Made by a program: the position numbers and the translations under genes | The notes under the pieces: model-generated | What the model was told of the DNA's origin: nothing | Database searches by the model: none | The model's input: the letters and a program-made list of their open reading frames with translations, nothing else | Assembly: GCA_032622095.1 (NCBI GenBank) | Contig: CP136067.1 | Location: 83,292,705-83,356,704, forward strand | Origin: Siphonodentalium dalli | Lineage: Eukaryota; Mollusca; Scaphopoda; Gadilida; Siphonodentaliidae | Direction of reading: 5' to 3' | DNA length: 64,000 bases | Part shown: piece by piece, positions 20,906-64,000 of the stretch | How positions within the stretch are numbered: the first letter of the stretch is position 1 | Layout: each line of letters begins with the position of its first letter

Positions 20906-21108
20906 TATATGTATATATATACTAGAAGGTGACCCGACTCGTCCGGGCTTTGACCTTGAATTGTCCATTTTGAAGGTCAAGGTCAAGTGGGGTCACTGCC
21001 CGGACAAAAGTACCCGACAAACGGGCCCGTCGAAATCCATCCGGTTTTACCCGATTTGACCTTGAATTGATTATTTTGAAGGTCAAGGTCAGGTCGGGGT
21101 CACGATAT
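20906..21108. repeat. Copy of ACTAGAAGGTGACCCGAC repeat with TGACCTTGA/TCAAGGTCA pairs
   Basis: After a short (TA)n tract the sequence matches the head of the repeat cluster at 35964-36170. Two units each carry TGACCTTGA facing TCAAGGTCA. It lies just left of the hAT element. Confidence 0.85.
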
Positions 21109-21300
21109 CTGTTTGAGATGGATAGAGGGAGATAGAGTTGGAGAGAGCGAGCGTATTGGAGAGGGTGTGGGTGTTGTTGTATGTACGAGTTGACGCATAT
21201 ATATGTTTGAGATGGATAGAGGGAGATAGTGTTGGAGAGAGCGATAGCATGGGAGAGGGTGTGAATGTTGTTGTGTGTACGAGTTGACGCATATATCTGT
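21109..21300. repeat. Tandem duplication, ~95-bp unit, two copies
   Basis: TGTTTGAGATGGATAGAGGG starts near 21109 and again near 21206. Each copy is followed by a GAGAGAGCGA tract and ACGAGTTGACGCATATAT. Confidence 0.9.
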
Positions 21301-21418
21301 TTGGATATTATTGCTGCTAATATGACGTACGTGTGATTATATGGACGATTTTGGAATAATATTCATATTGTACATATTGTTGGTGTTGCGTTGTCCTAAT
21401 CTTCCGCACCTCATATAT

Positions 21419-21426
21419 GCCTGTAT
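21419..21426. repeat. Target site duplication, left copy
   Basis: GCCTGTAT, identical to 35797-35804, directly abuts the left terminal inverted repeat of the hAT element. Confidence 0.88.
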
Positions 21427-21600
21427 CAGGGTTGGGGTAATTGTAATTTGTAATTGTAATTGAATGTAATTAATTACATTTTCCCAAGTAATTGGATGTA
21501 ATTTGTAATTGAAGGTTTTTTCAATTACATGTAATTGAATGTAATTAATTACATTGAGAAAAGGGGTGTAATTTCAATTACATTTTCAATTACATTCCAA
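21427..21600. repeat. hAT left terminal and subterminal repeats
   Basis: The terminal CAGGGTTGGGG is followed by about a dozen TGTAATT/AATTACA words in both orientations, including palindromic TGTAATTAATTACA. In hAT elements such subterminal motifs are usual transposase binding sites; binding here is inferred. Confidence 0.85.
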
Positions 21601-22060
21601 AAATACAGACCAATATAACAAGTTAACACATCAGCATTTGTATCTGAAATGTGACATGACTATGATATGTTAATAGTATCAGGTAAAACACTTGGTTACT
21701 AACTTACTTGACTAGTGTTATACACATGGGGTCATTATCCTCATATTTTCCTTCTATGTTAGTAGTTTCATTTTAAACATATTTTATTGTAAATTCATTA
21801 CAACGGGATTGGGGTACAAGTTTTAACAACTTACAATGTCCCTGCTCCCAGATACAATATATATATATATTTAACAAGATGACAGAGAAAATATACATGA
21901 TAAGGTTGCAAATTTGGTCTACAAAAGAGAAGATAACTTGTGTAAAGAGTGTGTGATAATCCGGTTCTGTGTTTGTATAATACTAGCGTTCTGCCCGCCT
22001 CCTCTCTCTCTCTCCATGTAAATAGAAACTGAGAAATAGTGGCCTTTGTTTTGAAGGGTA
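21601..22060. other. Spacer between hAT left end and LINE 3' end
   Basis: AT-rich sequence with a short (TA)n at about 21857-21870 and a CTCTCTCTCT tract near 22003. No gene was seen. Confidence 0.4.
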
Positions 22061-22119
22061 TTATGTGCTATATGTTTACATTTATTTGGTCCGTAGCTTT
22101 AATGTAGTCATACAATTAT

Positions 22120-25100
22120 TTATTCAGTATCAGTATCAGTATTGTCCGGTTCAAAACGCTTTGTTGCAGCTATATATGCCTGAACAATGCGGAACATCTT
22201 TTCATTCCTTGATGGAGTTTCACTTGAGTTTCCCCAAAGTAATTGCTTGTAATTGTTAATTTTAAAGTTGAGGTCGTCCAGTTTACGGTATAGTTCTAAC
22301 CTTTGTACATTATATAGGGAGCAATTTAGGAAAAAGTGCATATCACTTTCATATTCGTATCCACATTTACAGTTTGGGGTATCTGCTATATAATTTTCGA
22401 ACATATCTAAGCGGAGATCACTGCAGGAGTTTCTTATCCTACAGTGGAAAATACTATATTTTCGGTTTCCTGATTCAAAATATTTAGGCGGCTTTCTGGT
22501 GGGCTCTATCATATTTAGGTTATCCTTAAAATCTAGAAGATTTTCAGCATCCGTTATATATGTGGGTAGTTTGTTCCATGAAGTTGCAACGAAGGGGAAG
22601 AATGATTGCTTAAAATGTTCAGTTCTACTATAATATGAATGGAATCTGCCCGGATTTCGCATGTTATAGCTGGAGACTTGTACCGAGCGTGGTGGGAGTA
22701 AGCAAGATAAATAATATGGAGTTTCGTTATTTATAATTTTGAACATAGTTTGTAATTGGTGCTTCTCTCTGCGAATGTTCAGAGAAGGCCAGCCAGCTTC
22801 GCATAGGACCGCATTATTGGGAACTGAGCGCGTGAGCCCTGTAACTATTCTAGCGGCATCAACGTGAATCCGGTCAAGTTTATTTAGTAAATATGTCGGC
22901 GCGTTTTCCCAAATTACGTCCGCATAATCTAGGAGAGGCAAGATATAGGCCTTGTATATCTTATCGAGTGTTCTTCGATCTAGGTTGTACTTGTATCTTC
23001 TGAGTATCGATAGTCGCGGGACAACTTTTTTGACTATAGATTCAATTTGGATATTCCAATTTAAATTGCTTTGTATTTCGAGACCAAGGTGTTTATGCGA
23101 CTCAATTATGTCAATTCTTTTATTTTGGAAGGTTAAATCTAGAGGGACCTCTCGAGGGGTCAGGGAGAACAATATTGCCTTAGTTTTGGTTGGATTAAAG
23201 TTTACAAGCCATTTGTTGGCCCAATCTGATATTTTATTAAGGTCTTGGTTTACACTTCTTTCTAGCAGCTTTATGTCATAGTGTTTGGACGTGAGACATG
23301 TGTCATCTGCGTACATTCTTGTTTCGGAATTTAAATTATCTGGGAGATCATTTATATATACCAGGAAAAGGAAAGGTCCGAGTATCGATCCTTGGGGCAC
23401 TCCGGCTGGAATGGGTTGGAAGTTGGAATATGAATTGTTTATTAAGACTCGTTGTTTTCGATTACTGAGGTAATCTTCCAGCCATTTCAATAACGGACCG
23501 GATATGCCATATTGTTCTAGCTTATATATCAGTCCCCTATGCCAGACTCTTTCAAATGCCTTTGATATATCGCAAAAAACTGAACATGTGTATAAGTCAT
23601 TATCGAGAGTCTGACAGAGGTTATGATATAGATCTGTTAATTGGAAGGTCGTGCTATGTCCGGGAATAAAACCAGATTGATGTTGGTACATTAGTTTGTT
23701 ATCTTGGAAAAATGACATAAGATGTTGGGTAATTATTTTTTCAAACACTTTGCCGAGGCTCGGAAGGAGGGAAATAGGACGGTAATTTATACAATCGGCA
23801 GGATCATCTTTTTTAAATATGGGGATAACATTTGCTTTTTTCCAGTCTGATGGGAATTGGCCGAGCTCCACTGACTTTTTAAAAATAATTTCTAATGGAA
23901 CAACAATCGATTCAGCAGTAGCGTGAATCATTTTTGGGCTTATGCCATCAAATCCATGGGCTTTGTTAACTTTAAGTGATTTAATTGCAGTAATGATCTT
24001 ATCTCGGGTGAAAATAATATTGGATAGCGATTTGGAGCATCTACGGAGAAGGGTTGGAATTTCGTGACCACGATCATCGATATTTGAATTTAAAATGAAG
24101 GCCTCGTTTAAACACTTCGCTTTCTCGCGATCATCTGTCACATAGGTTTTTCCATCAATAGTGACATCTCCGTGTTGACTATATAATGGTGGGATGCATG
24201 TGGATTTCTTTTTGTTCAGCAAATAATTTATTGTTTGCCAAAAGTCGCGAGGGGATGGGGATTCATTTACTCGTTCTTCAAGTTTAGAATGAAATTGTGC
24301 TTTCGCGTATTTCTTCATGTTGTTTACTTTATTTCTGATATCTTTATAATTTCTCCATGAGACATCTGAATTTCGTTTTATGGCTATTTTTCTCAATCTA
24401 TCTCTGCGTCTGATCTCCCTTCTTATATCTGAGTTGAACCAAAACTTGTCATTTGTTCGTATCGTGACTGTTGATTTGGGGACTGTCTCTTCCATTACTG
24501 AGATGAATAAATTACAGAATCGGGAGACAGCATGGTCTAAATCTTCAACTGTATTTAATTCTTCTTGCCAGTTAATAGCATCTAACATACTGTTAGCCCT
24601 GGTATAATCTCCGTGTTTATATTTCCATATAGTTCTCTTAAATGATGTAGTTTCATATTTTTTGAATTTTAATATCGCATAAACACCATAATGATCTGAG
24701 AAACCAAGATTTAGAGTGTCGGCGTCGTACACTTGTAAGTTATTGCTCACGATTATGGGGTCCAGAAGTGTTTGGGATGTGAGCGTGACTCTTGTTGGTT
24801 TTTTAATTACATCCTTGAATGTATAATGACCAACTATTTCACTGAGTTTCGAATGCGGATTTAACAGATTGGAGTTAAAATCACCGAGTAGAATTAAATT
24901 TTCAGTTATTTTCAAGGCATTATCTATTGATTCTTCAAAGAGGTCCCAATAGTTTATGTTACAGAATTGCTCCGATCTGTAGGTTAATGCGAGGAGGACT
25001 CGATTCGATTTATTCGCGATCTCAAACCAAAAGATAGAGGCGTCAAACTCGAGTTCGGTTCTCCGTTTGTAAACCAGATGCTTAGCGAAATATACACAAA

Positions 25101-25524
25101 TTCCACCGCCATACGAGTTTCGGTCAGATCTAAACGGACGATGGAAGTTTTCAATTAACAATTTGTCCGTATGGTAGGTTGGGTCGAGGTGTGTTTCAGT
25201 GAAGCAAAGAATGTCATATTCGTTTATAGCTTCAACTATTTTATGTAGCTTATTTCTAATACTGCGGATATTATATTGAAAAACAGTTATGTTCCCTGTT
25301 ATGTCAGTTTGTGAATTTGGTCCCGGATTGCTATGAACGGATCCAGAACTTAGAAGCAGCATTGTTATTACGACAAGGACAAGTGGCAGTCTTAGGTTAC
25401 ATCCCTTGGGGATTTTATAATATTTACTTTTTCTATGTAAATCCATTTTCGGCCTGTTTTTATACTTTATGTTATTAAAGCTGCCAATCGCGGCACGGTG
25501 CTGCATCGCTGAGATCCCCATCAA
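22120..25524 (-). CDS. LINE (Jockey/CR1-like) endonuclease-reverse transcriptase, intact
   Basis: A single open frame of 1134 residues encodes a non-LTR retrotransposon polyprotein that nicks target DNA and reverse-transcribes its own RNA. An N-terminal hydrophobic stretch (47-59) is followed by GSVHSNPGP (61-69), resembling the 2A-like signature of some LINEs. An APE-type endonuclease spans about 80-286: N85, E110, GDFN at 214-217, SDHYG at 276-280. The reverse transcriptase spans about 515-790: catalytic D652 in CDISKAFERVWH, GVPQGS at 708-713, YADD at 738-741. The C-terminus has Cys/His residues (CKCG..MHFFLNC, about residues 1073-1092). All catalytic residues look intact, so it may be active. 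No ORF1 precedes it. Clade placement within the Jockey superfamily is uncertain. The true start may be M1, M2 or M27. Confidence 0.93.
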   Translation of the reverse strand: MMGISAMQHRAAIGSFNNIKYKNRPKMDLHRKSKYYKIPKGCNLRLPLVLVVITMLLLSSGSVHSNPGPNSQTDITGNITVFQYNIRSIRNKLHKIVEAINEYDILCFTETHLDPTYHTDKLLIENFHRPFRSDRNSYGGGICVYFAKHLVYKRRTELEFDASIFWFEIANKSNRVLLALTYRSEQFCNINYWDLFEESIDNALKITENLILLGDFNSNLLNPHSKLSEIVGHYTFKDVIKKPTRVTLTSQTLLDPIIVSNNLQVYDADTLNLGFSDHYGVYAILKFKKYETTSFKRTIWKYKHGDYTRANSMLDAINWQEELNTVEDLDHAVSRFCNLFISVMEETVPKSTVTIRTNDKFWFNSDIRREIRRRDRLRKIAIKRNSDVSWRNYKDIRNKVNNMKKYAKAQFHSKLEERVNESPSPRDFWQTINYLLNKKKSTCIPPLYSQHGDVTIDGKTYVTDDREKAKCLNEAFILNSNIDDRGHEIPTLLRRCSKSLSNIIFTRDKIITAIKSLKVNKAHGFDGISPKMIHATAESIVVPLEIIFKKSVELGQFPSDWKKANVIPIFKKDDPADCINYRPISLLPSLGKVFEKIITQHLMSFFQDNKLMYQHQSGFIPGHSTTFQLTDLYHNLCQTLDNDLYTCSVFCDISKAFERVWHRGLIYKLEQYGISGPLLKWLEDYLSNRKQRVLINNSYSNFQPIPAGVPQGSILGPFLFLVYINDLPDNLNSETRMYADDTCLTSKHYDIKLLERSVNQDLNKISDWANKWLVNFNPTKTKAILFSLTPREVPLDLTFQNKRIDIIESHKHLGLEIQSNLNWNIQIESIVKKVVPRLSILRRYKYNLDRRTLDKIYKAYILPLLDYADVIWENAPTYLLNKLDRIHVDAARIVTGLTRSVPNNAVLCEAGWPSLNIRREKHQLQTMFKIINNETPYYLSCLLPPRSVQVSSYNMRNPGRFHSYYSRTEHFKQSFFPFVATSWNKLPTYITDAENLLDFKDNLNMIEPTRKPPKYFESGNRKYSIFHCRIRNSCSDLRLDMFENYIADTPNCKCGYEYESDMHFFLNCSLYNVQRLELYRKLDDLNFKINNYKQLLWGNSSETPSRNEKMFRIVQAYIAATKRFEPDNTDTDTE

Positions 25525-26600
25525 ATACTTTGGGCGAGATCAAAGCTAAGCAGCCCGAAACCGGTTAACAGCTGTAATAACTGATATCCTGGAGTGAGAG
25601 AAAGTCGGCAGTTTGCTAGCAGAATGTATGAGAGATACAGTTGTTTTTGTGGGTCAGAGAAACGGTGGCATGATTGGAATGTATCAAACATGAAAAAAAC
25701 ATGATAGACAATGGTGAAACAATATATACACAAAATCGTTGATAAAACAACGAAGAACATGATTGTAATAAGATGAAGTGTCAATGGGACATGTATGGGT
25801 ACATGTAGAAAGAGTCCAATCATGTAGAAGGTGAGTAGAAACAAATAAAAGAAATCCGTTTTTTTTTTTTTGGAGTGGGTATTTCATAATGTCATGTGGC
25901 GGTACCGATACTGAAATTGAGATTGGTCGCTACCCCAAAGCCAGGGGGGGGGGGGCAACGACCAAACTCAGCTGTATCGACCCCAGAAGATCGGTTGGGT
26001 ACATATTGCTGCATTTATGCGTAAAACGCCACACTGTCATGTCGCTTACACGAAAGGATGAGGGATTTATACATGTGCGGAAAAGCAGAATAGTTATATA
26101 AACGGGTTGCCATATATTGACTGTTTTATTATTGCCGGCATGTCGTTGATAATTATGTCAGAGGTCACGCCCGTGAAACACGTGCCGTTGGACGGGAAAT
26201 TTTCGACAGACACATGGATCGGTATACATTTCATCCGGTTTCTATTTATTATCATTTATATAATTCCATTGCCAATAGTTTAGATTTGTGCATAAATGGG
26301 ATAGTTTTGTGACATGACAGTGCGTGCAAGATGCTGAACGGGGATCATTCACAGTACCGGTACCTACGGAATTATGGAGTTTTGGCTTCAGTTACTGAAT
26401 TTATAGATGTGACTTTTAGTGCTAAGTACTGTGCCAGCAAGGTTTGTTTTCTCTTTGCTAGAGATAGTGTTATCAATTTTGGCGTGATGAAACGCGTTAC
26501 GTGAGTGTCGAAGACAGTTCGAGCTTGGGGTATTTATATTTCTAATATCTATATGGTGATACTGAAAGAGGCGATGATTTGATGAAATAAATAAATTACA
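25525..26600. other. Region upstream of the LINE, no gene recognised
   Basis: It probably includes the LINE 5' untranslated region next to 25524. On the + strand, 25545-25575 contains AAGCTAAGCAG followed by CCGGTTA, which resembles the internal promoter of 5S rRNA genes, but the match is short. A poly(T) run lies at about 25859-25871 and a 12-G run at 25944-25955. No coding sequence is evident. Confidence 0.35.
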
Positions 26601-28230
26601 GATACATGCAAATCAGCAAGGTTATTTGTCAAAGCATTTTATATAGACATATAGTCATAGTTTGTTTTTTATTTTTTATTTATTTTTTAAATTGTATTTA
26701 TTTTTTAAATTGTATAGCCCATGATTCAGGGACGCGGCCCCGTGAAAAAAGGAGGGTGTATATATACGAGTGGAACGGGGTATCAGACTGGCTATTTTTT
26801 ATTTTATTTATTTATTTATTTTTTTTTATTTTTTTATTTTTTTTAATTGAAATTGGGCATATCAGTGTTAAAGGTGTCATTCCGGATTTGAAGCATTCAG
26901 TTACATAAACATGCCAAATATAATATACTTTTAATTTATTTGGAAATATATTTTGTGATTATGTTTGTTTTTTATTTTGTTTTTGTTTTTTCAATTGGAG
27001 AACAAAATTTGGTGTTACATATAAGCTAAGTTTCATCATGTACACTTGTAAAATGAATTATGTTTATGATCATTTTTTATGATTGTTAAATCTGGATTCA
27101 TGGAAATATGTCCGGAAAGTGAGAGACACCTTTAAGTAAATTGGAAGTACTCATTGCTGATTGGCTTGCAATTAATTGGTACTTTCACACATATTGATGT
27201 GAGATTTTCAGAGTGATAGTTTGTTCCAATTTTTTGTTTTTTTTTGTTTTTGTTTTTGTTTTTGTTTTTGTTTTTCCACGGTTTCGCATTCTGGATGCAG
27301 GAATTTTTGAGTTGGTATATGGTTCTAGGGTTTAATATGTACATTGTTAGTTTGAAATTACCTTTGTAAAACTTAAGGAATTTGCGAGGCCAAACCAAAT
27401 TTAACTTCACTTAGTAAAGTTCTTAATTTGTTTGAAAAAGTCATGTACATGTGTTATTGATTAGGGTATCATGAATTGATTTAACTGAGTGGTGATGAGC
27501 TTTGATTAGAATGAGTTATTTTCAAGTCTGCATTGTTCCATCAAATTAATCAATTGGATTTTCATCATTTTAAATGAATTAAATTGTTACAAAACAAATA
27601 TATATATATATATATAAATATATATTTTTTATTATTATTTTTGTTTTCTTCTATCCATTCTCAAAGTTGATGAAACTCATCACCAGCCAGATTTACCTTT
27701 GCTCCTTTGTCTCATCTGGTCACAGTTTGGACTGAAGATCTGGAGATTGGATTTTGTAAATTTAAAATTGGAAGTATTTTGCAAAATATTTGCTTGATTG
27801 TTGCAATGAAAAGTGGTGGATTGGATGTACCAAAAGGAACCACCAAAATTCTCTTATGTGTTATGCACCTTGTCTCCAGATCTCCCTTCCGATCTGTTTT
27901 TATACATATAAAGTTTTCATGTCCAGCTGAAAATTGGTAAAAATACATATATTCCGTACCTACATGTATGACAAAAAGGTATCCTGGATTCACATTCTAT
28001 GCTGTTAGTTAAGACATAGATTTAGAAATGTATACTCAGAGTCTCAGTACAACTTAAAGATATGTTCAGGGTTCTAGGTCCAATTTGAATCTGTAGATTT
28101 TATATAAAGTATTTACATGTGGTGAATAGGGTAATGACTTTAACAATGGTTGATGAAATAAGTTGAGGATAGGTATATACTATATAGATGTTGCTAATTC
28201 AGCCTGTAATGAAATATAAATAATGAGTTT
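26601..28230. other. AT-rich stretch with simple repeats, no gene recognised
   Basis: It contains TTTAT-rich tracts at about 26665-26850, a (GTTTTT)n array at about 27236-27275 and (TA)n at 27598-27622. Small open frames show no domain. Confidence 0.45.
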
Positions 28231-28234
28231 AGCA

Positions 28235-29255
28235 AATTTGAATCAAGTAACTTGGTTATAGGTAGTTAGCTGCTACTAATTTGGGCCTTGTGGCCCTGAA
28301 CACATATTTAATGCCTTGGCATGTGAACCAAGTAACTTGAAAATAAATAATTAGCTGTTTCTAATTGAGCCCTGTGGCCCTGAACACATATTTAATGCCT
28401 TATCATGTGAACCAAGTAGCTGGACTATAGGTAGTTAGCTGTTGCTAATTTGGGCCTAGTGGCCCTGGACACATATTTAATGCCTTATCATGTGAACCAA
28501 GTAGCTCGACTATAGGTAATTAGCTGTTGCTAATTTGGGCCGTGTGGCCCTGAACACATATTGAATGCCTTATCATGTGAATCAAGTAACTTGACTATAG
28601 ATAATTAGCGGTTTCTAAGTGAGCCCTGTGGCACTGAACACATATTTAATACCTTATCATGTGAATCAAGTAACTTGACTATAGATAATTAGCTGTTTCT
28701 AATTGAGCCCTGTGGCCCTGAACACATATTTAATGCCTTATCATGTGAACCAAGTAGCTTGACTATAGATAATTAGCTGTTGCTAATTTGGGCCTTGTGG
28801 CCCTGAACACATATTTAATGCCTTATCATGTGAATCAAGTAACTTGACTATAGATAATTAGCTGTTGCTAATTTGGGCCTTGTGGCCCTGAACACATATT
28901 TAATGCCTTATCATGTGAAATCAAGTAACTTGACAATAGATAATTAGCTGTTTCTAATTGAGCCCTGTGGCCCTGAACACATATTTAATGCCTTATCATG
29001 TGAACCAAGTAGCTTGACTATAGATAGTTAGCTGTTGCTAATTTGGGCCTTGTGGCCCTGAACACATATTTAGTGCCTTATCATGTGAATCAAGTAACTT
29101 GACTATAGGTAATTAGCTGTTTCTAATTGAGCCTTGTGGCCCTGAACACATATATATTTAATGCCTTATCATGTGAATCAAGTAACTTGTCTATTGGTAA
29201 TTAGCTGTTGCTACATGTAGTTGAGCCTTGTGGCCCTGAACACATAGTTAATGTC
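28235..29255. repeat. 85-bp tandem array, about 12 copies
   Basis: Each unit carries GGCCCTGAACACATATTTAA, CTTATCATGTGAA, CAAGTA.CTTGACTATAG and TTAGCTGTTGCTAATTTG. Units alternate between a GCTAATTTGGGCC version and a TCTAATTGAGCCC version, so a dimeric higher-order pattern may exist. The array lies inside the hAT element. Confidence 0.93.
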
Positions 29256-29628
29256 TTTCTTGTGGCATATCAATACAAATTGTTTTTGGTCCATCAAAGA
29301 CTGAGACTCTGTTTCAGTAAACAAGTTTAAAAATAGTCTTTGATTTAATTCATTCCATTGTTTTATCTCAATTAGAATAATAGTGAGGCCCTCTGTCCTG
29401 GACGGGTATTTATTCTGGTGCAGTTTTCAAGGATTAACCATTTCATGTAATGAACTGCACTGGTGTAGATTTAAAGATCATTCTTCCATTCATGCGAGTC
29501 CCTTCCCCACAGGGAGCCCCGCACTCACTCGAGAAAGCACCGGCTTGCAAGGTCAGAGTAAATATTGATTGTCCAATGAATTATTGCATATATGACCCTC
29601 AAGACAAGGCATCAGAAAAAGTTTTTTT

Positions 29629-29654
29629 GGGGGGGGGGGGGGGGTGAAATTCAA

Positions 29655-29689
<35 letters not shown>
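29629..29689. repeat. Poly(G) run followed by poly(A) run
   Basis: There are 16 G at 29629-29644 and about 34 A at 29656-29689. The poly(A) could be a retroelement tail on the + strand, but no element body to its left is recognised. Confidence 0.8.
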
Positions 29690-29691
<2 letters not shown>

Positions 29692-29699
29692 CAAAAGTC

Positions 29700-30685
29700 T
29701 CCAAGTTGAGTGACAGTTGAGTCATCAAACGAGTGACAGTTGAGTCATCAAACAGAGGACCACACCAATCCTAATATAGACATTCATGTTACATGTGATG
29801 TTATAAATTTTAAGGCATATTATATAATCATTTGAATAAACATTTGTATAAACATTTGTGGTGGTAACATAGCAAAGATTGTTATATATTAGGACTTGTT
29901 GTCAGTTTTTTAAACAATCTGTTTAAAAGGATGGGAAGGGGAGATAGTTGGTGGTTTATTTGGAGAAGCTTCATATTGCCAGTGAATGTTTGGGCTCTGC
30001 TCAAACTTTTGGTTCTTTTACAAGCATTTTCAGGAAAAGCAGCACAACTATGGGAGCTTTGCCACTCTTTAATATTTCATATAAAGTTTTTCACAGATGG
30101 GCATATCATGGGGTGAAAATATTTAGAATGAGCATTCTCCCGCGCATGCGATTAATAGAATGATAGATAGTAAGATTTTTTCAAATTGGGTTTTTTTGTT
30201 TGTTTTTTTTTATTGGGTCTACATATAGTGCCTGTATACATGTATGACTCTTGCCAGTTACCACCACCTGTTTACATTTGGAATAAATTCATTTAATTGT
30301 GACAGCTCTATAGTATATACATATGCAGATACTCTGCGTGAATTCAAATAATAAAGAAAATTCATTTTTATTATTCGCTCATGATAATTTGTGAGCAATT
30401 CAGCTTTCATATTACTTGAGGGGGGGGGGGGGGGGGTATCAGTTATCTGTTGTGCTTATCATGTTGATTTTTTAGTTATGAGTAACTGATTAAATAATAA
30501 TTATATTATACAAGACATTTAGATGCGGGGTATATATGATGATTGGCTTGGTCGTAATAAAATTATATTAGAACTATGATTTTGGGGACTTTTAACTAGC
30601 GAACTAAACAGATACTGATTTCAGCAATAAGGTACATGTATTTGAATGGTGAGACTTTTATACGTTTGAGATCACAAGGTCGCTT
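29700..30685. other. Non-coding stretch inside hAT element
   Basis: A 20-bp direct repeat (GAGTGACAGTTGAGTCATCA) occurs twice at 29709-29752. A run of about 17 G lies at 30420-30436. Short open frames near 29931-30163 look spurious. Confidence 0.4.
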
Positions 30686-30689
30686 CTTG

Positions 30690-31070
30690 GTTTCAGATAT
30701 TACATTGCAAGATTGAAGTGACGGGGGGAGGGGGGGGGTGGCTACATAAAGAAAATATATATATATCTATATTTGCAACTGGGTTACTCAAGGTTTATAA
30801 AATATGAACGTATACATTTTCATCCCAAGTTTTTTTCAGGGATATTTCAATGTTACATTGTATGAATGAAGGGAGGGGGGGGGGGTGACGGCATAAATTA
30901 TTTTATCTATATTTGCAAATGGATTACTCAAAGTTTATGAGATGTGAACGTATACATTTACATTTCAAGTTTTATTAAAATATCACATTGCAAGAGTGAA
31001 GTGGTGGGAGGGGGGGGGGGGGGGGTGGCCGCATAATTTTTGTCTATATTAGCAATTGTGTTGTTTAAAG
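30690..31070. repeat. ~145-bp tandem repeat with G tracts, three copies
   Basis: Each unit has TTGCAAGATTGAAGTG (or a variant), a long G run (about 30723, 30871, 31010), then TCTATATTTGCAA, a TACTCAA..TTTAT block and GTGAACGTATACATTT. The last copy merges into the next array. Confidence 0.85.
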
Positions 31071-31079
31071 TTTATAAAA

Positions 31080-31600
31080 TGTGAACTTGTACATATAGTA
31101 GAGTACCTAGAATTGGCAATTTTATGAGATATTAGTTCAGATTTATGAGATATGGTTTTATACATTTAGTAAAGTACCTGGAATTGGTAATTTATGAAGT
31201 ATTAGTTCAATATTTACTTCAGAAATTATGAAATGTGAGCTTATACATTTAGAAAAGTACCTAGAATTGACAATTTTATGAGATAATAGTTCAGATTTAT
31301 GAAATATGGTTTTATACATTTAGTGAAGTACCTGGAATGGGTAATTTATGAAATATTAGATCAATATTTAATTAAAAATTTATGAAATGTGAGCTTATAC
31401 ATTTAATAGAGTACCTAGAATTGACAATTTTATGAGATATTAGTTCAGATTTATGAAATATGTTTTTATACATTTAGTAAAGTACCTGAAATGGATAATT
31501 TATGAAATATTAGTTCAATATTTACTTCAAAATTTATTAAATGTGAACTTATACATTTAGTAGAGTACCTAGAATTTGTGGTAAGCATTTTTGACAGTCA
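31080..31600. repeat. ~78-bp tandem repeat (156-bp dimers), about seven half-units
   Basis: TACATTTAGTAAAGTACCT recurs near 31092, 31153, 31234, 31315, 31396, 31468 and 31551. Alternate copies read CCTAGAATT and CCTGGAATG, which implies a dimeric unit. It lies immediately downstream (minus sense) of the ORF1-like gene and could be part of its 3' untranslated region. Confidence 0.8.
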
Positions 31601-31661
31601 GGACCTGCAACAAAAGGGTTACTATAATATACAATATTGTTCATTTGATGAAAAGTCAGAT

Positions 31662-33050
31662 TTAACTAATTGCCTTGGCTTCTCCAATCGACTTTAGTGA
31701 GAGTTTAGTCCCACTTGCACTCTTCTTGTAGAATATTCTTCCATCGAAGGTCCAATAAGAGTCAATTTTGCCATTTTTCTTTAGGTCTGATAGTTCTTTA
31801 ACAATTGCTTGTCGTGATTCAGTTAAGCTCTCAGTTATTATTACCGAACTTCTTCCTTTCAGGCCTTTCTTGTTCATGTATACATCAAATTTGGTTGTCC
31901 AAAGATTGAACCGAACAATAATTTGTACGGTTCTCTTAGATGTACTAGAATGGGCTGTAGGTGGGTTCCCATATCTGTTTGGACGTACACGAATTCCACC
32001 TAGAGGGTGGGCTCTACTAATTTCATTCCTCTTCAGATCTGAATTTAAGAGCTTTAAGTCATTCACAGTCCCTATTATGAGACCAATCCAGTCAAACTTC
32101 TTGAAAGCACTCTGAGTCAGATTATCTGGAATTTCTACATTGTGGAAAACAAGGCAGTTTCGTCGACTGTACTGTTCTGATCCTTCAAAGAGATCATTAG
32201 CATGGCTGATGGCCTTGTTGAATTTAGTGTCAACTAGCTTTTCAATTTCAACCAGATTTGTTCCTTGTGTCTTTTTCTGTATTTCCAGGGTGTTCCCTTG
32301 TACTTTATTTCTCAAATCTTTGTTTTCTTCTTTGAGTTTGTTTACTTCTTCCTTCAAGTATATTATCTCATTTTTTATAACATTTACATCATTTTTTACA
32401 TCTTCTACTTCATGTTTTGTGTCAATCAAGGTTTTCTTGATGGACTCTTCAATGTGTGTATTTAAATTGGTGAACATTTTTGTCATATTAGAAATTTCTT
32501 TACTGATTGAGGAAAACTCTTCTTTGATGGATATTTTAATTTGGTCTTTAATGGATTTGTCTATATGCTCTTCCATGGATTCATCCAGCGTTATCTTTCT
32601 TCTTGTCATTCTATTTGGGGATTCATCATCGTTTCTCTTTCTTACCAGTTTTCGTTGTCTCAGAGATTGGAGACGCTGTGCTGTTACATCTAAATTTTGA
32701 AGAAAAGATGATGGAGATCCAATTGGAGAGTTTACTGGTGTGAAAATTGGAGTGCTAGTTTGGCTCAGGGGAAGATATGTTTCATCTGCCACACTGTTAA
32801 TAACCTCCATTATAGTGTCCTGTGTTTGGTCATTTTGTTCTTCAACTATTAATTTGGGACTGTCACAATCAGGATCAGTATTGTCATTTTGTGGCACATC
32901 TGCAGTTTCTTTGTTTGTACATGTAGGTAATGAATTTGATACCTGGATCATGCTGTTTTCCTCTTCTTCTGTGGTCATGTTGTCGGAAGACGAAACTTTA
33001 CATTCAGAACCAGATTTATAGCTTTCGCTTGTGTCACCAACGTCCGCCAT
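31662..33050 (-). CDS. ORF1-like protein of a LINE (coiled coil plus nucleic-acid-binding region), intact
   Basis: A single frame of 462 residues. The first ~120 residues are acidic, Ser/Thr-rich and probably disordered. Residues ~130-160 are basic. About 165-285 is a Lys/Glu-rich coiled coil. From about 285 on, an SRRNCLVFHNVEIPDN segment and a compact C-terminal region (VQIIVRFNLWTTKFDVY, then a run of helices ending YWTFDGRIFYKK) fit the RRM-like plus C-terminal domains of LINE ORF1 proteins, which coat element RNA. No reverse transcriptase follows on the same strand for 6 kb. It may be an ORF1-only derivative or belong to an element split by other insertions. The frame is open and has no obvious damage. 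Confidence 0.75.
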   Translation of the reverse strand: MADVGDTSESYKSGSECKVSSSDNMTTEEEENSMIQVSNSLPTCTNKETADVPQNDNTDPDCDSPKLIVEEQNDQTQDTIMEVINSVADETYLPLSQTSTPIFTPVNSPIGSPSSFLQNLDVTAQRLQSLRQRKLVRKRNDDESPNRMTRRKITLDESMEEHIDKSIKDQIKISIKEEFSSISKEISNMTKMFTNLNTHIEESIKKTLIDTKHEVEDVKNDVNVIKNEIIYLKEEVNKLKEENKDLRNKVQGNTLEIQKKTQGTNLVEIEKLVDTKFNKAISHANDLFEGSEQYSRRNCLVFHNVEIPDNLTQSAFKKFDWIGLIIGTVNDLKLLNSDLKRNEISRAHPLGGIRVRPNRYGNPPTAHSSTSKRTVQIIVRFNLWTTKFDVYMNKKGLKGRSSVIITESLTESRQAIVKELSDLKKNGKIDSYWTFDGRIFYKKSASGTKLSLKSIGEAKAIS

Positions 33051-33717
33051 TTTGTTACTATTTTTAGAAAATAAATTAGTAGCTCTGTTTAAAGTCTTTA
33101 AATCATCATTTGCTAGCTGATATTTAGCTTTGTACTAACATTCGTCGATTATTCTGACATTAATATATTACTGTGCACGATTATTTCATTTTGAAGCCGC
33201 TCCTATTCTCCAATAAAACGGAAAATTCTTCACCGAAATTTACTCTGTTCTTCTCGGTTCCGCCATTTTGTTTTCCATACATGATTACACGGCTTGTTGA
33301 GGGGGGGGGGGTCGCATCGGGGGACACGAGCCTCTACCGGGGCATACCACACAGTATGTAGTTTCATGGATACATGTTCTAAATTAAAACTTCAAAGATG
33401 GAGTCATGAAACCCTCTCACTATAGAAGTCACACAATGTTTCATGGATACATGTTCTAAATTAAAACTTCAAAGATGGAGTCATGAAACCCTCTCACTAT
33501 AGAAGTCACACAATGTTTTGATAGTCTAAATGTGGTTTGATTTAAAACAACTCACAAGTTGTGGGTCACAATAGAATTAATATGAACAATGTTTTGATAG
33601 CCCCCCCCCCCCCCATAATGAGATGGTCTCATCATTTGTTGTTACAAGTTTGTATATAACTGCATCACTGACTATCAAGCAATCGTTATCTCTTTGCCTC
33701 TATTAGAGTCATTAGCG
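33051..33717. other. Region between the ORF1-like gene and the hAT transposase remnant
   Basis: It holds an 11-G run at 33301-33311 and a perfect 77-bp tandem duplication (33361-33437 and 33438-33514) starting GTTTCATGGATACATG. A 14-C run lies at 33601-33614. The right end should include the transposase promoter, but no motif stands out. Confidence 0.6.
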
Positions 33718-35449
33718 ATGCCTTCTCAAAGTTTTTCATTCATGAGGCAACATTTTACCTTGCCCAATGATATTTCTGACAAATTCAAAGCTACATGTAA
33801 ACATTGGCCAACACTGATTTCGGGTTCAGCAAAAGCAACTTCAAATTTCATCACACATCTAAAGGTAAGTCATGTTGAATTTTATTTTATATTATTTATA
33901 TATGTTATTGTTATTATTATATGTATATGTTTTAATACACCTACAATAATGTGTATATCATCATGACAATATGTACATAATTTGCTGAGTAATACTTTCA
34001 CTAGTAACCGTGTTAGTAAACCCCCTGGAATCGGATGACTCAATATTATAAGGCCTTCCGTCGCTCGTTGAACTGGAACTAAAAGGCCCAACATTAAGCT
34101 CAGTATTATGACAGTCACTCACGATCTCGCGATTGATTTTGTGCACTGGCTGCAAATAACTTGGATAAAAATATTCAGCCGACGGATCTAATTGCCGACA
34201 TTTAAGATGACCTAGTCATTTTTTAAGCATGTCGGGGCATGCCGAAGACGATTCAGGATGGGAAACTTTCTCTTTCCGTTGACGATAACAAGTAGCGCAA
34301 AAATGTTCAACCATTCTAGCTTGCCCACGAATTTCAATCTGATGTGGAGCGGATTGAAAACACCGATTCCGTTGATACAACGGGCAGTACCACGACATGG
34401 CATTGCCGTTTGAATGTTGACCAGCTGTGACTTTAGGGGAAAAGGTACTTGTAACTTTGGTACGAACATGCCGCGACAAAATTGGCAATTCAATTATACC
34501 AGGGTCATCACTCCACACATTCTTCCCCAACTCAATGCGCCGCAACCAATCGGCATAAAATGTTAAGAGAGCCTTCCACTCATAAATGGTGTAATAATAT
34601 GCCATTTTCTTTAGCAAGGTCATTCGACCAATGCTCTCGACATTCGTAAACTTTGTGCGTTCCCGCATAGAATCTTCAAGAAAGGCCGGATGTCGTCGTG
34701 CATGACGTTATATACTACGCTATAGTCTGCATCTATAAAGTGAGATATGCTCAATGCAGATTCCCTTATCCGCAATTATCCTGTTTGACTAAGTCAAACA
34801 AATACAATTAATACAAGTACATGTATTGGATTTAAAAAAAAAAAAAATTCCTAAACATTATTGTTGTTTCTGAACATTCCCGGAATATATCTTTAAAAGT
34901 AATACATTCATTTTAAAACAATAATTGTTTTATAACATTAATAATAAATGCATTTTGTCTTCATAACAAAACCTAATTTAATCTATTTGTTTTGAGCTTA
35001 ACTGTATTCACCTCCATATCTGGTCAGTGTTGTGCACTTAATCTGTGTTGCTGTCCTAATTATATGACTCCACTGCAGTATTTTATCAATGCGTTAATCC
35101 CCTAACAAAGGCAGCATTAGGTGCACCTGTGGCCTGTTTTACTTCATAATCCTGATTATGTCATTGTGTGTGATTTACAACCCTAGCTGGCTTGATTGTT
35201 TTAATCCCTGCTATTAGTATGTAGGCAAATTATACATAATGATGTATCTTAATGTTAATTATTTTTGTTTCAGCGGAAACATAGGGATCAATATGAGCGC
35301 CCTCTTCATACTGGCGACTTAATTGTACAAACTTTCCTGGGTTAAGCCTGCTAGCTGCAAAGCACCTCTGTGTCCCTGCCTCATCGGCACCCGTTGAGCG
35401 GCTCTTCAGTATTGCAGGCCAGACCCGACAGGTGTCGAATGACAGATGA
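33718..35449 (+). pseudogene. hAT transposase remnant: BED zinc finger joined to dimerisation domain, core deleted
   Basis: Exon 1 (33718-33864, 49 codons) encodes a BED finger: QHFTLPNDISDKFKATCKHW, then a Thr/Ser stretch and ITHLK. A GTAAGT donor follows. The acceptor TTTCAG ends at 35273, and the next exon begins RKHRDQYERPL, completing the His-x4-His half of the finger. The second zinc Cys is replaced by Trp. Within about 10 codons the sequence jumps, out of frame, to the C-terminal hAT dimerisation domain (35303-35446: YWRLNC, then LAAKHLCVPASSAPVERLFS). The DDE catalytic core and the insertion domain are absent, so no active transposase can be made. If translated, the in-frame product would be about 72 residues. 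Confidence 0.82.
33964..34730 (-). pseudogene. Gag-like retroelement fragment antisense in the transposase intron
   Basis: On the minus strand, one frame runs from about 34730 to 33964 with a single in-frame TGA near 34213-34215. Residues in the middle include NGNAMSWYCPLYQRNRCFQS, then H, RGQ, VEHFCATCYRQ and HPESSSACP. This is a Cys/His pattern like the zinc-binding C-terminus of some retroelement gag proteins. The family is unclear; a DIRS-like or other tyrosine-recombinase element is one guess. It probably represents an insertion into the intron between the two transposase exons. Confidence 0.45.
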
Positions 35450-35649
35450 CACATTCGAAAGAATGATGATGGTCAGTTGTAACCAGCACATCAAATGAAC
35501 AATTTGTGCTCGACATGTAGTTGTTGTTTTATTGTTTTGTTTACATTGTTTCACTGTGTTACATTAATTTGCTTTTATATTTTATGTATATCAATAAAGT
35601 TCATCAAACACAAATGACTTTCCTCCTTGAAGCTCTTCCGATTTTCATT

Positions 35650-35796
35650 AACCAAAAGTAATTGTAATTGAACCAATGTAATTGTAATTGTAATTAATTA
35701 CATTGCATTTCCAATGTAATTGTAATTGTAATTGACATATTTAAATGTAATTGTAATTGTAATTAATTACATTGCAATGTAATTGACCCAACCCTG
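35650..35796. repeat. hAT right terminal and subterminal repeats
   Basis: The AATTGTAATTGTAATTAATTACA words mirror those at the left end and finish with CCCAACCCTG at 35787-35796. Confidence 0.85.
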
Positions 35797-35804
35797 GCCT
35801 GTAT
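35797..35804. repeat. Target site duplication, right copy
   Basis: GCCTGTAT directly abuts the right terminal inverted repeat and is identical to 21419-21426. Confidence 0.88.
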
Positions 35805-35902
35805 ATTATAATGTATGGTTCGTTTGGCATGTGTTCCTTTGTTTTCAAGTGTAGATATATTACATATGTATCTTTGTGAGCTCTTCGTTAATGGAGGAAG
35901 TA

Positions 35903-35903
35903 A

Positions 35904-35963
<60 letters not shown>
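35903..35963. repeat. (TA)n microsatellite, ~60 bp
   Basis: A pure TA repeat ends directly at the ACTAGAAGGTGACCCGAC head of the next repeat, the same junction seen near 20925. Confidence 0.95.
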
Positions 35964-35965
<2 letters not shown>

Positions 35966-37384
35966 TAGAAGGTGACCCGACTTCGTCCGGGCTTTGACCT
36001 TGAATTGTCCATTTTGAAGGTCAAGGTCAAGTGGGGGTCACGATTAGATCAGTCCAAAACTCGACCCGGACAAAAGTACCCGACAAACGTGCCCGTCGAA
36101 ATCCATCCGGTTTTACCCGATTTGACCTTGAATTGATCATTTTGAAGGTCAAGGTCAGGTCTGGGTCACGACTCGACCCGTCCAAAACACTCAGTTGACA
36201 AAAGTACCCCCATGTATCAAATTTCGTCGAAATCCCATCAAAATTGGCGATTTTACCTTGAATTGACCCGATTTCAAGGTCAAGGTCACGTCGCACGGAC
36301 AAACGAATATGCTTATGAGACTCCCCACATACCAAGTTTCATCGAAATCCCGTGATATTCGAGCGTTTGACCTTGAAATGACCCGATTTCAAGGTCAAGG
36401 TCACGTCGCACGGGCAAATTAATAGGTTTATGCCACTCTCCGACCGAAGGTACCACCACATACCAAGTTTCATCGAAATCCCGTGATATTCGGGCGTTTG
36501 ACCTTGAAATTACCCGATGTCGCACGGGCAAATTAATAGGCCTATGCCAGTTCCCGGCCGAAAATACACCCACATACCAAGTTTTATCGAAATCGGTTCG
36601 GCCATTTTCGAGTCCATCGCGAACACACAGACACACAGACACACATACAGATCTTCCAAAATATATAATAGACTAGAAGGTGACCCGACTTCGTCCGGGC
36701 TTTGACCTTGATTTGACCATTTTGAAGGTCAAGGTCAGTTGAGGTAACGATTTGACCCGTCCAAAACACTGCCCGGACAAAAGTACCCCACACAAGTACC
36801 CGTCGAAATCCATCCTGTTTTACCCGATTTGACCTTGAATTGATCATTTTGAAGGTCAATGTCAGGTCGGGGTCACAATTTGACCCGTCGAAAACACTCA
36901 GTGGACAAAAGTAAACCCTATGTATAAAATTTCGTGGAAATCCCATCAAAATTAGCGATTTGACCTTGAATTGACCCGATTTCAAGGTCAACGTCACGTC
37001 GCACGGGCAAATTAATATGCTTATGAGACTCCCCATACGAAAGTACCCCCACATACCAAGTTTCATCGAAATCCCGTGATATTCGGGCGTTTGACCTTGA
37101 AAAGTTGAAATGACCCGATTTCAAGGTCAAGGTCACGTCGCACGGGCAAATTAATGGGCCTATGCCACTTCTCGGCCGAAAATACCCCCACATACCAAGT
37201 TTCATCGAAATCCCGTGATATTCGGGCGTTTGACCTTGAAATGACCAGATTTCAAGGTCAAGGTCACGTCGCACGGACAAATTAATATGCCTATCATCGA
37301 AATTGGGTTGGTCGTTTTCGAATTCATCGCGAACACACACACAGACACACAGACAGACAGACAGATCTTCCAAAATATATAATA
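35964..37384. repeat. Cluster of ACTAGAAGGTGACCCGAC repeats rich in TGACCTTGA/TCAAGGTCA hairpins
   Basis: Two head-to-tail copies start at about 35964 and 36671. Each ends with GACACACAGACA-type and ATATATAATAGA tails, which suggests a SINE-like or other non-autonomous repeat. About ten sub-units of ~125 bp carry TGACCTTGA facing TCAAGGTCA. In several (for example 36368-36398) TGACCTTGAAAT and ATTTCAAGGTCA form a perfect 12-bp stem around a 6-base loop. TCAAGGTCA is the known extended half-site of ERR and NR5A nuclear receptors; activity here is untested. Confidence 0.85.
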
Positions 37385-38536: not shown

Positions 38537-41500
38537 GTTAGTTGAAATTATATGGTATTAAAAGATGTTTTATTATCCCCATATTATATCGATAATGACA
38601 TGAAACAAATGCTACGCATGACTTACAATGGGATATTAACTTTTAAGGCAATCAAAACATGTCTTTGTTGTTAAATACGACATCGCATAGTTTGAGGAAA
38701 TGTGCTTTGATGGCAAACGTGATGTGCTTTTAGCATGAAGATAGGAAGTTCAAACTCCATATACGAGAGAACTATACACGACACGCGCCCGGAGTGGGAT
38801 TTTTACCCAATTGAAGAAACACATGACAATATACGTACCATTGTTAGTCTGAGGTGAGCGACTTTTTTAAAAACAGTTTACCGCAGACCATGTTGTGTTC
38901 ACTTCCATCCACACACATCGAACTGTTTGAAAACCGCATATACGTCGACAAAGTGACTTTTCACAGGCAAAATATTGTTCTCGGAGATGATTTGTATCAA
39001 ATAGGTGAGTGTTACCACCCATATCTCATTCCAGAAAACATCATGACTCGTCTTCTCGGAATAGTTTAATTCTGAGTTGTTTGAAGGAGGCATTTTATTA
39101 GACATGGGATGCGACACAGACTAATCTTGTCAGCCCCAACACCCCCCCCCCCCCCCCCCACCATGAGCTGCTCTCGTTTTGAGCTTTTCAAAATGACCAA
39201 CTAGTCCCATCCCAGGAGTACTGTAAGATATTAGAGGTCAGGGTATTGGTCCCACCCCTTCCAAAAAGAGATACGACATTTTAAAATTACGATTTACCCA
39301 ATAAACTATGCGTATACGACATTTTAGAACTTAGCATATCATCTTCGCATGATGGTAGTCAACCAATTATGGATTGACTAAGCAAATTAATGTCGAGTAA
39401 CATGTTCAATCTCATTTGCTCCAGTTTTTAGGTGCTTTTCTCGAGGATAAATAATGTTATATTATTTTAATATAAATGTCTCAAATTAATTTACCCTATC
39501 CTGAAATGCTTCTGAATTCGGGGCAAATTATTTACTCTATCAAATAAACGAATGTTCCCCCTTTCCAAAGGTGTCAGACGTATTTACCACATGAACACGT
39601 CTCTCGCAAGTTGATCTGTTTGATTATGTATTTGTCAATGCATTGATCTGTATCGATTTCTATTGACACACAGAACAAACACTACCCACTCGTCATAAAC
39701 GTGTGCCCTCTGATATTTCTCTAACCCAGGAGTGCTTGGCTTTTCTATTTTTTTTTATTTTTTTTAGGAAACGGGGATACATTGGTCTATTTGATAATGT
39801 CTATTATTTAGTACGCAATTTCGTTGGGGCACCCCGAAAAGTTATGCAACGGGCTATGTGCCCAGGCAAAGTCCAGATTATAGCACCAGCCATACCAACA
39901 CGAGTCCCTCACCTCCTCGAAGGGATGCCCGGTGGCTCAACCTGCGAGGTGCATCCCGCTGGCATAAGTCGTCCATCACTGGCGAAGCTGGTTCCTATCC
40001 CGATTGGCTCGGAATTGTACTCTTTGTAAAGGGAGGGTATTCTGGAAGTCGGTATCTGGGTAAGATGGCAGTTTCCTTCCGGGGGTCATATGCAATACTG
40101 TCAAATGCATTACTTAAGATTGTGCACCTTTTTGTGGGCGTTGTGCTCTGGCTCTCACCAGACAGTGCATGTAGCATGGATGACCAGAGGAAACTAGGTC
40201 TAGACTCTACAATAGACAAAGTACTTGACATTTTGTAAAGTGTGTAGTATACCACACTCTTATTGTCGGGTTAATAAACAATCACAATTTAGTCAAACAT
40301 GTGAAAACAGTCCCGAAAGTATGCAATACAGTTTATCTTTATTACTAAGCATTAAAAACAATGTTCATGCCGAGTTCTTTCCGGCAGGTATATCGGGAAA
40401 GCAGTTTTTCACCGAATTGTCCCATATACAACAGGCCATTTACATGTAGTTGAATATCATCTCCGCTAAGGCCTCTATGAGGTCCGAGTAGCATACATAT
40501 GGTGTTTTCATAGTTAACATATGTTTATAATTGTTTCATAAATTATATAGGCTACATCTGGGATTTTAAAGTGTCCAGTAAAACATTTAAGAGAGGGAGT
40601 TAAAAATGTGTTTTTGGCAGTTTCAAACGCCCACCCACCTCGGCATACCTTCGTGCACAAACTTTCAACCCATATTCTGCACCGTACATATATGCACTTG
40701 TACCTGCTACATGCAAAATTATCTCAATCGATTTTTACAGTATGACTTGGTTTGTGACAAGAAGATGCTGGCTGGTGTGATAACGTCAATCCAACTGGCG
40801 GGGCTCTTCGTCGGAGGCATGGTAACAGGACAGATTGCTGAACTTATTGGTAGAAAGAAAACAGTTTATCTTCTCATATTTTCGAATATCGTGTTCTGTG
40901 CTATATCACTCATTGTTATCGACTGGAAATACTTTGCATTTGCGCGTTTCCTCATCGGATTCGGAGTTGCAGGGATAAATGTAGTGGACATCAGCGTTCC
41001 TGTAGAATTTACTAGTCCAAAATGGCGACCGTATATTGCAGGGACGCCGTCGTGGTCACTTGGAGCATGTTTCTTCTCATTGGCGGCGTACCTACTCCAC
41101 GACTGGAAATATATAACAGTTGCCACCATTGTCATCACGATACCATTCATGTTCGGGTGGTTGTAAGTTGTTTTTTGTTTTCTTCAGCGCGCTCACATGC
41201 AAGCTAGATTATCATATCTTAACTACAAACAAACACCATATTTATGTTACTCGGACATCATTTAGGCCTTAGTTTTTCTACAGACGTGGTCTAAATGGTC
41301 TTCATTGAATCACACAGAAATTTCGAGGCTCCGAGAATTATATTTGGTCCGCCCTCTTTGGGTTATAGCTTTCCGAATGGGAAAATTCCAGCTCCAATTA
41401 TGATGACCATTCAGTCCAAACATTTGAAAGTAGAAAATATTTTAATTATTCTTAAGCAACAATGTCACACTTGTTGCAATATCAAACAATCAAATTTTAT

Positions 41501-62800: not shown

Positions 62801-64000
62801 TGGCGTATAACATCGTAAGGATCGGGTGGATTCCCCGTGGTAGCGTATAACATCGTAAGGATCGGATGGATTCCCCGTGGTAGCGTATAACATCGTAAGG
62901 ATCGGGTGAGTCCCCGTGGTAGCGTATAACATCGTAAGGATCGGGTGGATTCCCCGTGGTAGCGTATAACATCGTAAGGATCGGGTGGATTCCCCGTGGT
63001 AGCGTATAACATCGTAAGGATCGGGTGGATTCCCCGTGGTAGCGTATAACATCGTAAGGATCGGGTGGATTCCCCGTGGTAGCGTATAACATCGTAATGA
63101 TCGGGTGGATTCCCCGTGGTAGCGTATAACATCGTAAGGATCGGGTGAGTCCCCGTGGTAGCGTATAACATCGTAAGGATCGGGTGGATTCCCCGTGGTA
63201 GCGTATAACATCGTAAGGATCGGGTGGATTCCACGTGGTAGCGTATACCATCGTAAGGATCGGGTGAGTCCCCGTGGTAGCGTATAACATCGTAAGGATC
63301 GGGTGGATTCCCCGTGGTAGCGTATAACATCATAAGGATCGGGTGGATTCCCAGTGGTAGCGTATAACATCGTAAGGATCGGGTGAGTCCCCGTGGTAGC
63401 GTATAACATCGTAAGGATCGGGTGGATTCCCCGTGGTAGCGTATAACATCGTAATGATCGGGTGGATTCCCCGTGGTAGCGTATAACATCGTAATGATCG
63501 GATGGATTCCCCGTGGTGGCGTATAACATCGTAAGGATCGGGTGGGTTCCCCGTGGTAGCGTATAACATCGTAAGGATCGGGTGGATTCCCCGTGGTAGC
63601 GTATAACATCGTAAGGATCGGGTGAGTCCCCGTGGTAGCGTATAACATCGTAAGGATCGGGTGGATTCCCCGTGGTAGCGTATAACATCATAAGGATCGG
63701 GTGGATTCCCCGTGGTAGCGTATAACATCGGAAGGATCGGGTGAGTCCCCGTGGTAGCGTATAACATCGTAAGGATCGGGTGGATTCCCCGTGGTAGCGT
63801 ATAACATCGTAATGATCGGGTGGATTCCCCGTGGTAGCGTATAACATCGTAATGATCGGATGGATTCCCCGTGGTGGCGTATAACATCGTAAGGATCGGG
63901 TGGATTCCCCGTGGTAGCGTATAACATCGTAAGGATCGGATGTATTCCCCGTGGTAGCGTATAACATCGTAAGGATCGGGTGGATTCCCCGTGGTAGCGT
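59812..64000. repeat. 40-bp satellite array (39/40-bp units), ~105 copies, continues past window
   Basis: The unit is GATTCCCCGTGGTAGCGTAT plus AACATCGTAAGGATCGGGTG. A 39-bp form has AGTCCCC for GATTCCCC. Point variants (CATAAGG, GTAATGATCGG, GTGGTGGCG, GGATCGGATG) recur in fixed order every 358 bp on the right (markers at 62615, 63331 and 63689), so higher-order repeats exist. All three minus frames are nearly stop-free, giving chance frames up to 925 residues built of a 40-residue cycle. These are not genes. The array lies in the last visible intron of the transporter. Confidence 0.97.

Follow-up and report, generated by a model that had tools for sequence, protein, structure and literature searches.

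A small hAT transposon of Siphonodentalium dalli interrupted by two later insertions, one of them a LINE of about 11.5 kb with a long array-bearing spacer between its ORFs

The window analysed here, a 64,000-nucleotide stretch of Siphonodentalium dalli DNA (contig CP136067.1:83,292,705-83,356,704, forward strand), holds a hAT transposon that is an ordinary non-autonomous element of ~1.87 kb, struck by two later insertions. This follows because ten of ten sibling copies, sought in the same 2.23-Gb genome, are without the inserts, and those with two ends measure 1.71-1.94 kb. We are highly confident of the order of events, in which the small hAT came first and a LINE of ~11.5 kb and an 823-bp element then went into it. 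Across copies the LINE retains a 6-kb spacer with tandem arrays between its two genes, and this makes the expression of its distant ORF2 a testable question.

The hAT superfamily typically produces 8-bp duplications and has inverted repeats of 5-27 bp, according to the accessible part of one report (PMC12506042). In the window, the left copy of the 8-bp target-site duplication, GCCTGTAT (21419-21426), is followed by the left part of the element (21427-21771, plus strand), with its terminal CAGGGTTGGG and subterminal TAATTG/TGTAATTAATTACA repeats. The right part (34806-35796, plus strand) carries a C-terminal transposase remnant, subterminal repeats and the terminal CCCAACCCTG, and it abuts the right copy of GCCTGTAT at 35797-35804. 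Both parts are also delimited by alignment to the siblings. The inverted termini are perfect over 10 bp, and TGTAATTAATTACA occurs twice near the left end and twice near the right. Short inverted ends of the CAGGG type are a hAT motif. A search for inverted termini that match perfectly over 10 bp, lie 200-20,000 bp apart and are bordered by a perfect direct repeat of 8 bp, with low-complexity words excluded, gives three cases within the window, namely this one and two that belong to one palindrome at 46995-47318, and none in 20 first-order Markov sequences; when the termini are shortened to 8 bp, the same 20 sequences yield nine cases. The pattern at 21427-35796 is beyond chance. The initial annotation had described the identical termini, the subterminal repeats and the 8-bp duplications, and all of them lie exactly where it placed them. 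Its assignment to hAT, with a genuine 8-bp duplication, also holds: the frame at 35297-35449 matches Dimer_Tnp_hAT in Pfam (PF05699; E=2.5e-10, 40.4 bits against a cut-off of 21.4), and five siblings end alike, with CCCAACCCTG directly before perfect 8-bp duplications of their own.

At the other end of the former gene, a first-exon remnant (33622-33864, plus strand) is BED-finger-like and runs into a GTAAG donor-like sequence; its match to the Pfam zf-BED profile (PF02892; E=7e-4, 20.0 bits) falls just below the cut-off of 20.6. A complete transposase gene is absent: between 33622 and 35498 there are only the N- and C-terminal pieces, and no listed frame joins both. Of the transposase, the window hAT keeps just the BED-like piece from the N-terminus and the Dimer_Tnp_hAT piece from the C-terminus, and it is therefore non-autonomous. 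A direct repeat search also reveals a 77-bp perfect tandem duplication inside the hAT (33361-33514, plus strand), which adjoins the LINE insertion and is present as a single copy in the aligned siblings. Internally deleted non-autonomous hATs with a BED finger and Dimer_Tnp_hAT are alike in their 8-bp duplication, short CAGGG-type ends, subterminal repeats and dimerisation remnant, and the window copy differs from them by the two nested insertions alone.

The larger of these, insert A (21772-33357, minus strand; 11,586 bp), is made up of the ~11.5-kb LINE and an 81-bp chimeric piece at its 5' end. It is missing in the ten siblings, and four other genomic copies share its inside as far as they were read. 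At its junctions in the window stand two copies of a 10-bp target duplication, GTAGTTTCAT (21762-21771 and 33358-33367). There are no LTRs around this copy and no bounding direct repeat of 25 bp or more. Insert A is a single minus-strand LINE with an L1-type ORF1, an array-bearing spacer of ~6.1 kb, and an ORF2 that combines endonuclease and reverse transcriptase. LINEs are usually 5-7 kb long, with a short gap between their ORFs. Insert A is an APE-type non-LTR retrotransposon, having an AP-like endonuclease and a reverse transcriptase in one frame and, in this copy, the 10-bp duplication.

ORF2 (22120-25539, minus strand) is an open frame of 1139 aa, with YADD and, near the N-terminus, NPGP. 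Pfam places in it an endonuclease domain (PF03372, E=1.1e-12) and a reverse transcriptase (PF00078, E=2.6e-34), and the protein matches human L1 ORF2p (8sxt, E=5.6e-19), with 8c8j at E=7.8e-19. At E<=0.001 it has 85 relatives, the named ones including Pinctada imbricata, Mytilus edulis and Candidatus Thiodiazotropha MAGs, with 34-41% identity among the named ones cited. Candidatus Thiodiazotropha bacteria live in clams. The N-terminal consensus is SGDIExNPGP, of which NPGP is at least 90% conserved in ten aligned ORF2s, and the window copy reads SGSVHSNPGP. LINEs bearing a 2A sequence have D(V/I)ExNPGP near the N-terminus of ORF2. A stretch near the ORF2 start looked 5S rRNA-like by eye, and an RNA-gene origin was discarded when 21000-36300 gave no Rfam match at E<=1. 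Downstream of ORF2 lies the 3' UTR (21772-22119, minus strand), ending in ...AATAAAATATGTTTAAA and read in the window copy only.

ORF1 (31662-33050, minus strand) is open over 462 aa from its ATG, or 490 aa from stop to stop. Its predicted fold is of type II (L1-like), with a coiled coil, an RRM and a C-terminal domain. Confidence in the structure model is intermediate (mean pLDDT 66.8, from six sequences), and long helices can raise Z. According to the accessible part of one study, type II ORF1 occurs in the L1, CR1, L2 and R1 clades (PMC4120745). With ORF1 as the query, the PDB sequence search returned nothing at E<=1, PHROGs gave weak matches alone (E 0.025 or worse), and none of 17 pattern matches in viral contigs was confirmed as a relative. 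Between copies there are 10 synonymous and 33 non-synonymous changes in ORF1 (ratio ~0.87), a comparison that shows little sign of selection, and the frame is unbroken in one of four other copies. LINEs of the L1 type and the Jockey superfamily with a type II ORF1 are alike in ORF1 fold, in an ORF2 with endonuclease and reverse transcriptase, and in their short target duplication; insert A differs in its ~11.5 kb, with the 6.1-kb spacer and its arrays between the ORFs.

The 5' end of the LINE was located with a probe covering 33050-33357, for which 40 matches were scored of 487 candidates. Seven other LINE copies (89-100% identity) all stop at 33270-33276, and this fixes the 5' end at ~33271, where the usual end reads AAAATGGCGGAACCGAG and a 5' UTR of ~220 bp begins (33051-33271, minus strand). 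On the minus strand AAAATGGCGG appears twice, once at the LINE 5' end (33260-33269) and once at the ORF1 start codon (33044-33053); we take it to resemble the YY1 site at the 5' end of human L1. The remaining 81 bp (33277-33357), joined to the 5' end of the LINE, come from an abundant repeat that is unrelated to it. This part alone is covered by 32 of the 40 scored matches, so that the piece has at least 32 genomic matches (90-98%), and at three fetched loci the repeat extends to both sides.

Between ORF1 and ORF2, the spacer (25540-31661, minus strand) occupies the same place in other copies. On its sense strand the window spacer lacks any open frame that reaches 130 aa; one of 120 aa lies at 25521-25883. 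Tandem repeat search and copy comparison reveal two sets of arrays in it: an 85-bp array of 12.0 units (28239-29264, minus strand), inherited by the copies, and arrays of ~140 bp and 154 bp (30697-31576, minus strand), whose unit number differs among copies. Four of the seven other 5'-end copies were fetched (L037, L038, L039 and L040; four loci on three contigs). L037, L038 and L040 match the window from the LINE 5' end to 23432, 23789 and 23592, respectively, these being the ends of the fetched stretches, within ORF2. L039 (C8:134346171-134356170) matches down to 28271, inside the 85-bp array, where its fetched stretch ends. Its spacer also contains an insertion of ~4.8 kb, with a 213-bp unit repeated twice.

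The 85-bp array counts 12.0 units in the window, 12.0 in L037, 10.9 in L038, at least 11.6 in L039 (where the stretch ends) and 12.1 in L040. It is collinear among copies at 98.4-99.1%, against ~88% likeness among the units within an array, which argues that it has been handed down whole rather than regrown. Counting substitutions only, the rest of the spacer is 96-100% identical among copies, and ORF1 together with the ORF2 part 98.8-99.5%. Differences in length also occur: two copies have a shorter 154-bp array, and at most ~440 bp of partly TATG-rich sequence near 25949, present in three copies, is missing from the window copy. A spacer probe gave 33 genomic matches in total, every candidate being scored. 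By coordinates alone, it lies 6.7-11.8 kb further in, on the expected side, in six of the seven 5'-end copies (split in one); the older copy at C4:137.4 Mb (89%) has no spacer match with this probe. Full-length matches number 16 with the window, the 15 others being at 96-100%. Ten of these 15 are not among the 5'-end copies found with the 33050-33357 probe, as 5' truncation of many LINE copies would lead one to expect.

These comparisons bear on what insert A is. The unusual 6.1-kb gap from ORF1 to ORF2, and the different repeat that supplies 81 bp at the 5' end, could point to two or more independent elements, an ORF2 LINE and a separate ORF1-bearing or spacer element, which became neighbours by chance. 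We consider this improbable, as the order and the arrays recur in all three copies whose reading reached ORF2, and throughout the part read of the fourth, at four loci on three contigs, and one 10-bp duplication encloses all of insert A. It is still less probable that copies of the 11.5-kb unit were spread by segmental duplication instead of retrotransposition. The repeat-rich window and the small number of full-length spacer-probe matches would fit such a spread, but similarity ends at 33270-33276 in seven of seven copies, the flanks beyond the LINE 5' end are unrelated in the three copies where they were compared, and the window copy sits inside a hAT with a target duplication.

The size of the hAT is settled by its siblings, since it is sibling copies in the same genome that decide whether a long interior belongs to a transposon. 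The initial annotation proposed to look for other loci by their terminal sequence and to compare interiors; this was run with the left end. With this probe (21411-21611), 40 of 1,335 candidates were scored; counting the window itself, the genome contains at least 40 matches, which are 95-100% identical. The siblings are the ten best non-self matches of at least 39, with 20 kb read at each. Neither insert A nor insert B is present in any of the ten over the 20 kb read. The siblings align to 21427-21771, 33438-33982 and 34806-35796 of the window, or to parts of these; the first of these segments aligns over its full length to seven of them (94.8-99.7%), and to the remaining three over 21427-21639 only. 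Both ends are kept in five siblings, together with perfect 8-bp duplications of their own, and these elements measure 1,938, 1,845, 1,879, 1,714 and 1,878 bp. The remaining five showed no right end of that form within the 20 kb read; in one, the 8-mer recurs after a right part whose last ~80 bp are missing. When both inserts and the 77-bp tandem duplication are subtracted, the window hAT comes to 1,870 bp.

Both insertion sites are also seen empty. That of insert A appears by exact word in six of the ten siblings, as an uninterrupted TTAGTAGTTTCAT[G/C]GATACATG with one GTAGTTTCAT copy. The exact word was not found in the four others, three of which are without the surrounding stretch in the alignment. 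Insert B (33983-34805; 823 bp) is flanked by an AATT duplication, and its minus strand has an open frame of 163 aa; the insert is absent from the siblings, and its empty site ACATAATTAATACAAG is seen in seven of ten. One end of this 163-aa frame is Cys/His-rich, and we take the frame to resemble a DIRS gag; it has no Pfam match above cut-off and no PHROGs match.

The giant cargo-carrying hAT that the initial annotation envisaged, should other copies share the interior, accordingly falls away: its interior is carried by none of the ten siblings, and the two-ended ones are 1,714-1,938 bp long. The mixed interior that it listed, with an intact LINE, an intact ORF1-like gene and tandem arrays, is real: the frames are open and the arrays exist. 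They are parts of one later-inserted element and not separate contents. That a hAT could move as one 14.4-kb unit, with LINE, ORF1 gene and arrays as cargo, has in its favour the perfect ends and duplication that enclose this length, and it is nonetheless the least probable reading of all, given the ten siblings read out of at least 39, the 10-bp duplication and empty site that belong to insert A, and the presence of the LINE at other loci, with no hAT part among the matches listed for the fetched stretches. ToxhAT/ToxTA, as described in the accessible part of its report, is a 14-kb cargo transposon first named a hAT, then refiled as Tc1/Mariner by its TA duplication, with a 14-kb unit conserved between species (PMC12506042). 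In that account its length and nested transposons are similar, and the window element differs in having no 14-kb unit. With the false giant transposon removed, it is evident that perfect ends around a long interior are insufficient evidence. The hAT with nested insertions is itself ordinary, and its length does not characterise the family.

The nested structure has the following history. The ~1.87-kb hAT, from a multicopy family, inserted first, making the GCCTGTAT duplication. As only the two ends of the transposase gene are left, it would have been mobilised by a transposase supplied from elsewhere. The 11.5-kb LINE then entered the hAT on the minus strand, with its 10-bp duplication, and the 823-bp element also entered it, with a 4-bp duplication. 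A single full-length RNA was probably the source of the LINE, copied into the site by target-primed reverse transcription. At the 5' junction, either the reverse transcriptase switched template to 81 bp of another repeat or the cDNA was joined to it, presumably within the same duplication. The spacer recurs in other copies, which suggests that the template RNA was unspliced across it, at least in the portions read of the fetched copies. Expression of ORF2 from a second promoter, placed near ORF2 within the spacer, or from a spliced subgenomic mRNA, would be more likely than reinitiation over 6 kb. Tentatively, and with less than even confidence, we propose that the whole ~11.5 kb may be the replicating unit of a bivalve-type LINE family, and the 6-kb array-bearing spacer a part of the working element. 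The spacer might then be a second promoter or subgenomic module for ORF2, with ORF1 and ORF2 made from different mRNAs and the unspliced full-length RNA serving as template.

Parallels exist for both the length and the 5' end of this LINE. The Drosophila telomeric LINEs HeT-A and TART are six to fourteen kb long, and TART has perfect non-terminal repeats, according to the accessible part of one report (PMC5537684). In that account they are very long, with large non-coding parts and, for TART, internal repeats, and the insert A LINE is similar. That account stresses a 3' UTR of exceptional length and a telomeric site, whereas insert A carries its added length from ORF1 to ORF2 and lies within a contig. 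In size the LINE is comparable to these Drosophila elements of 6-14 kb, and what sets it apart is the placement of the extra length between the ORFs. Among the literature matches listed, which leave subscription papers outside the search, no title concerns a LINE whose ORFs are separated by a long spacer. Chimeras that L1 forms at its 5' end with other RNAs, in the accessible descriptions, have unrelated sequence there within one target duplication, as in insert A. In insert A the partner is 81 bp long and comes from an abundant genomic repeat, known here from genomic sequence alone.

Elsewhere in the window, the tRNA scan of the 64 kb found none, and megablast against a phage collection gave no match. 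A 40-bp tandem array of 105 copies at 95% occupies 59812-64000 and reaches the window end; long open frames with Pfam matches that derive from it look spurious. Another array, of 25/53 bp and ~46 units, lies at 51293-52478. The frame at 40591-41166 encodes part of a sugar/MFS transporter (PF00083, E=1.7e-8) and is probably either an exon of the host or a fragment of a gene. Finally, the palindrome that surfaced in the chance test belongs to a larger one (46921-47393), whose arms at 46970-47063 and 47250-47343 are 98% complementary and each contain an inner 33-bp palindrome; it is likely a foldback or MITE-like element.
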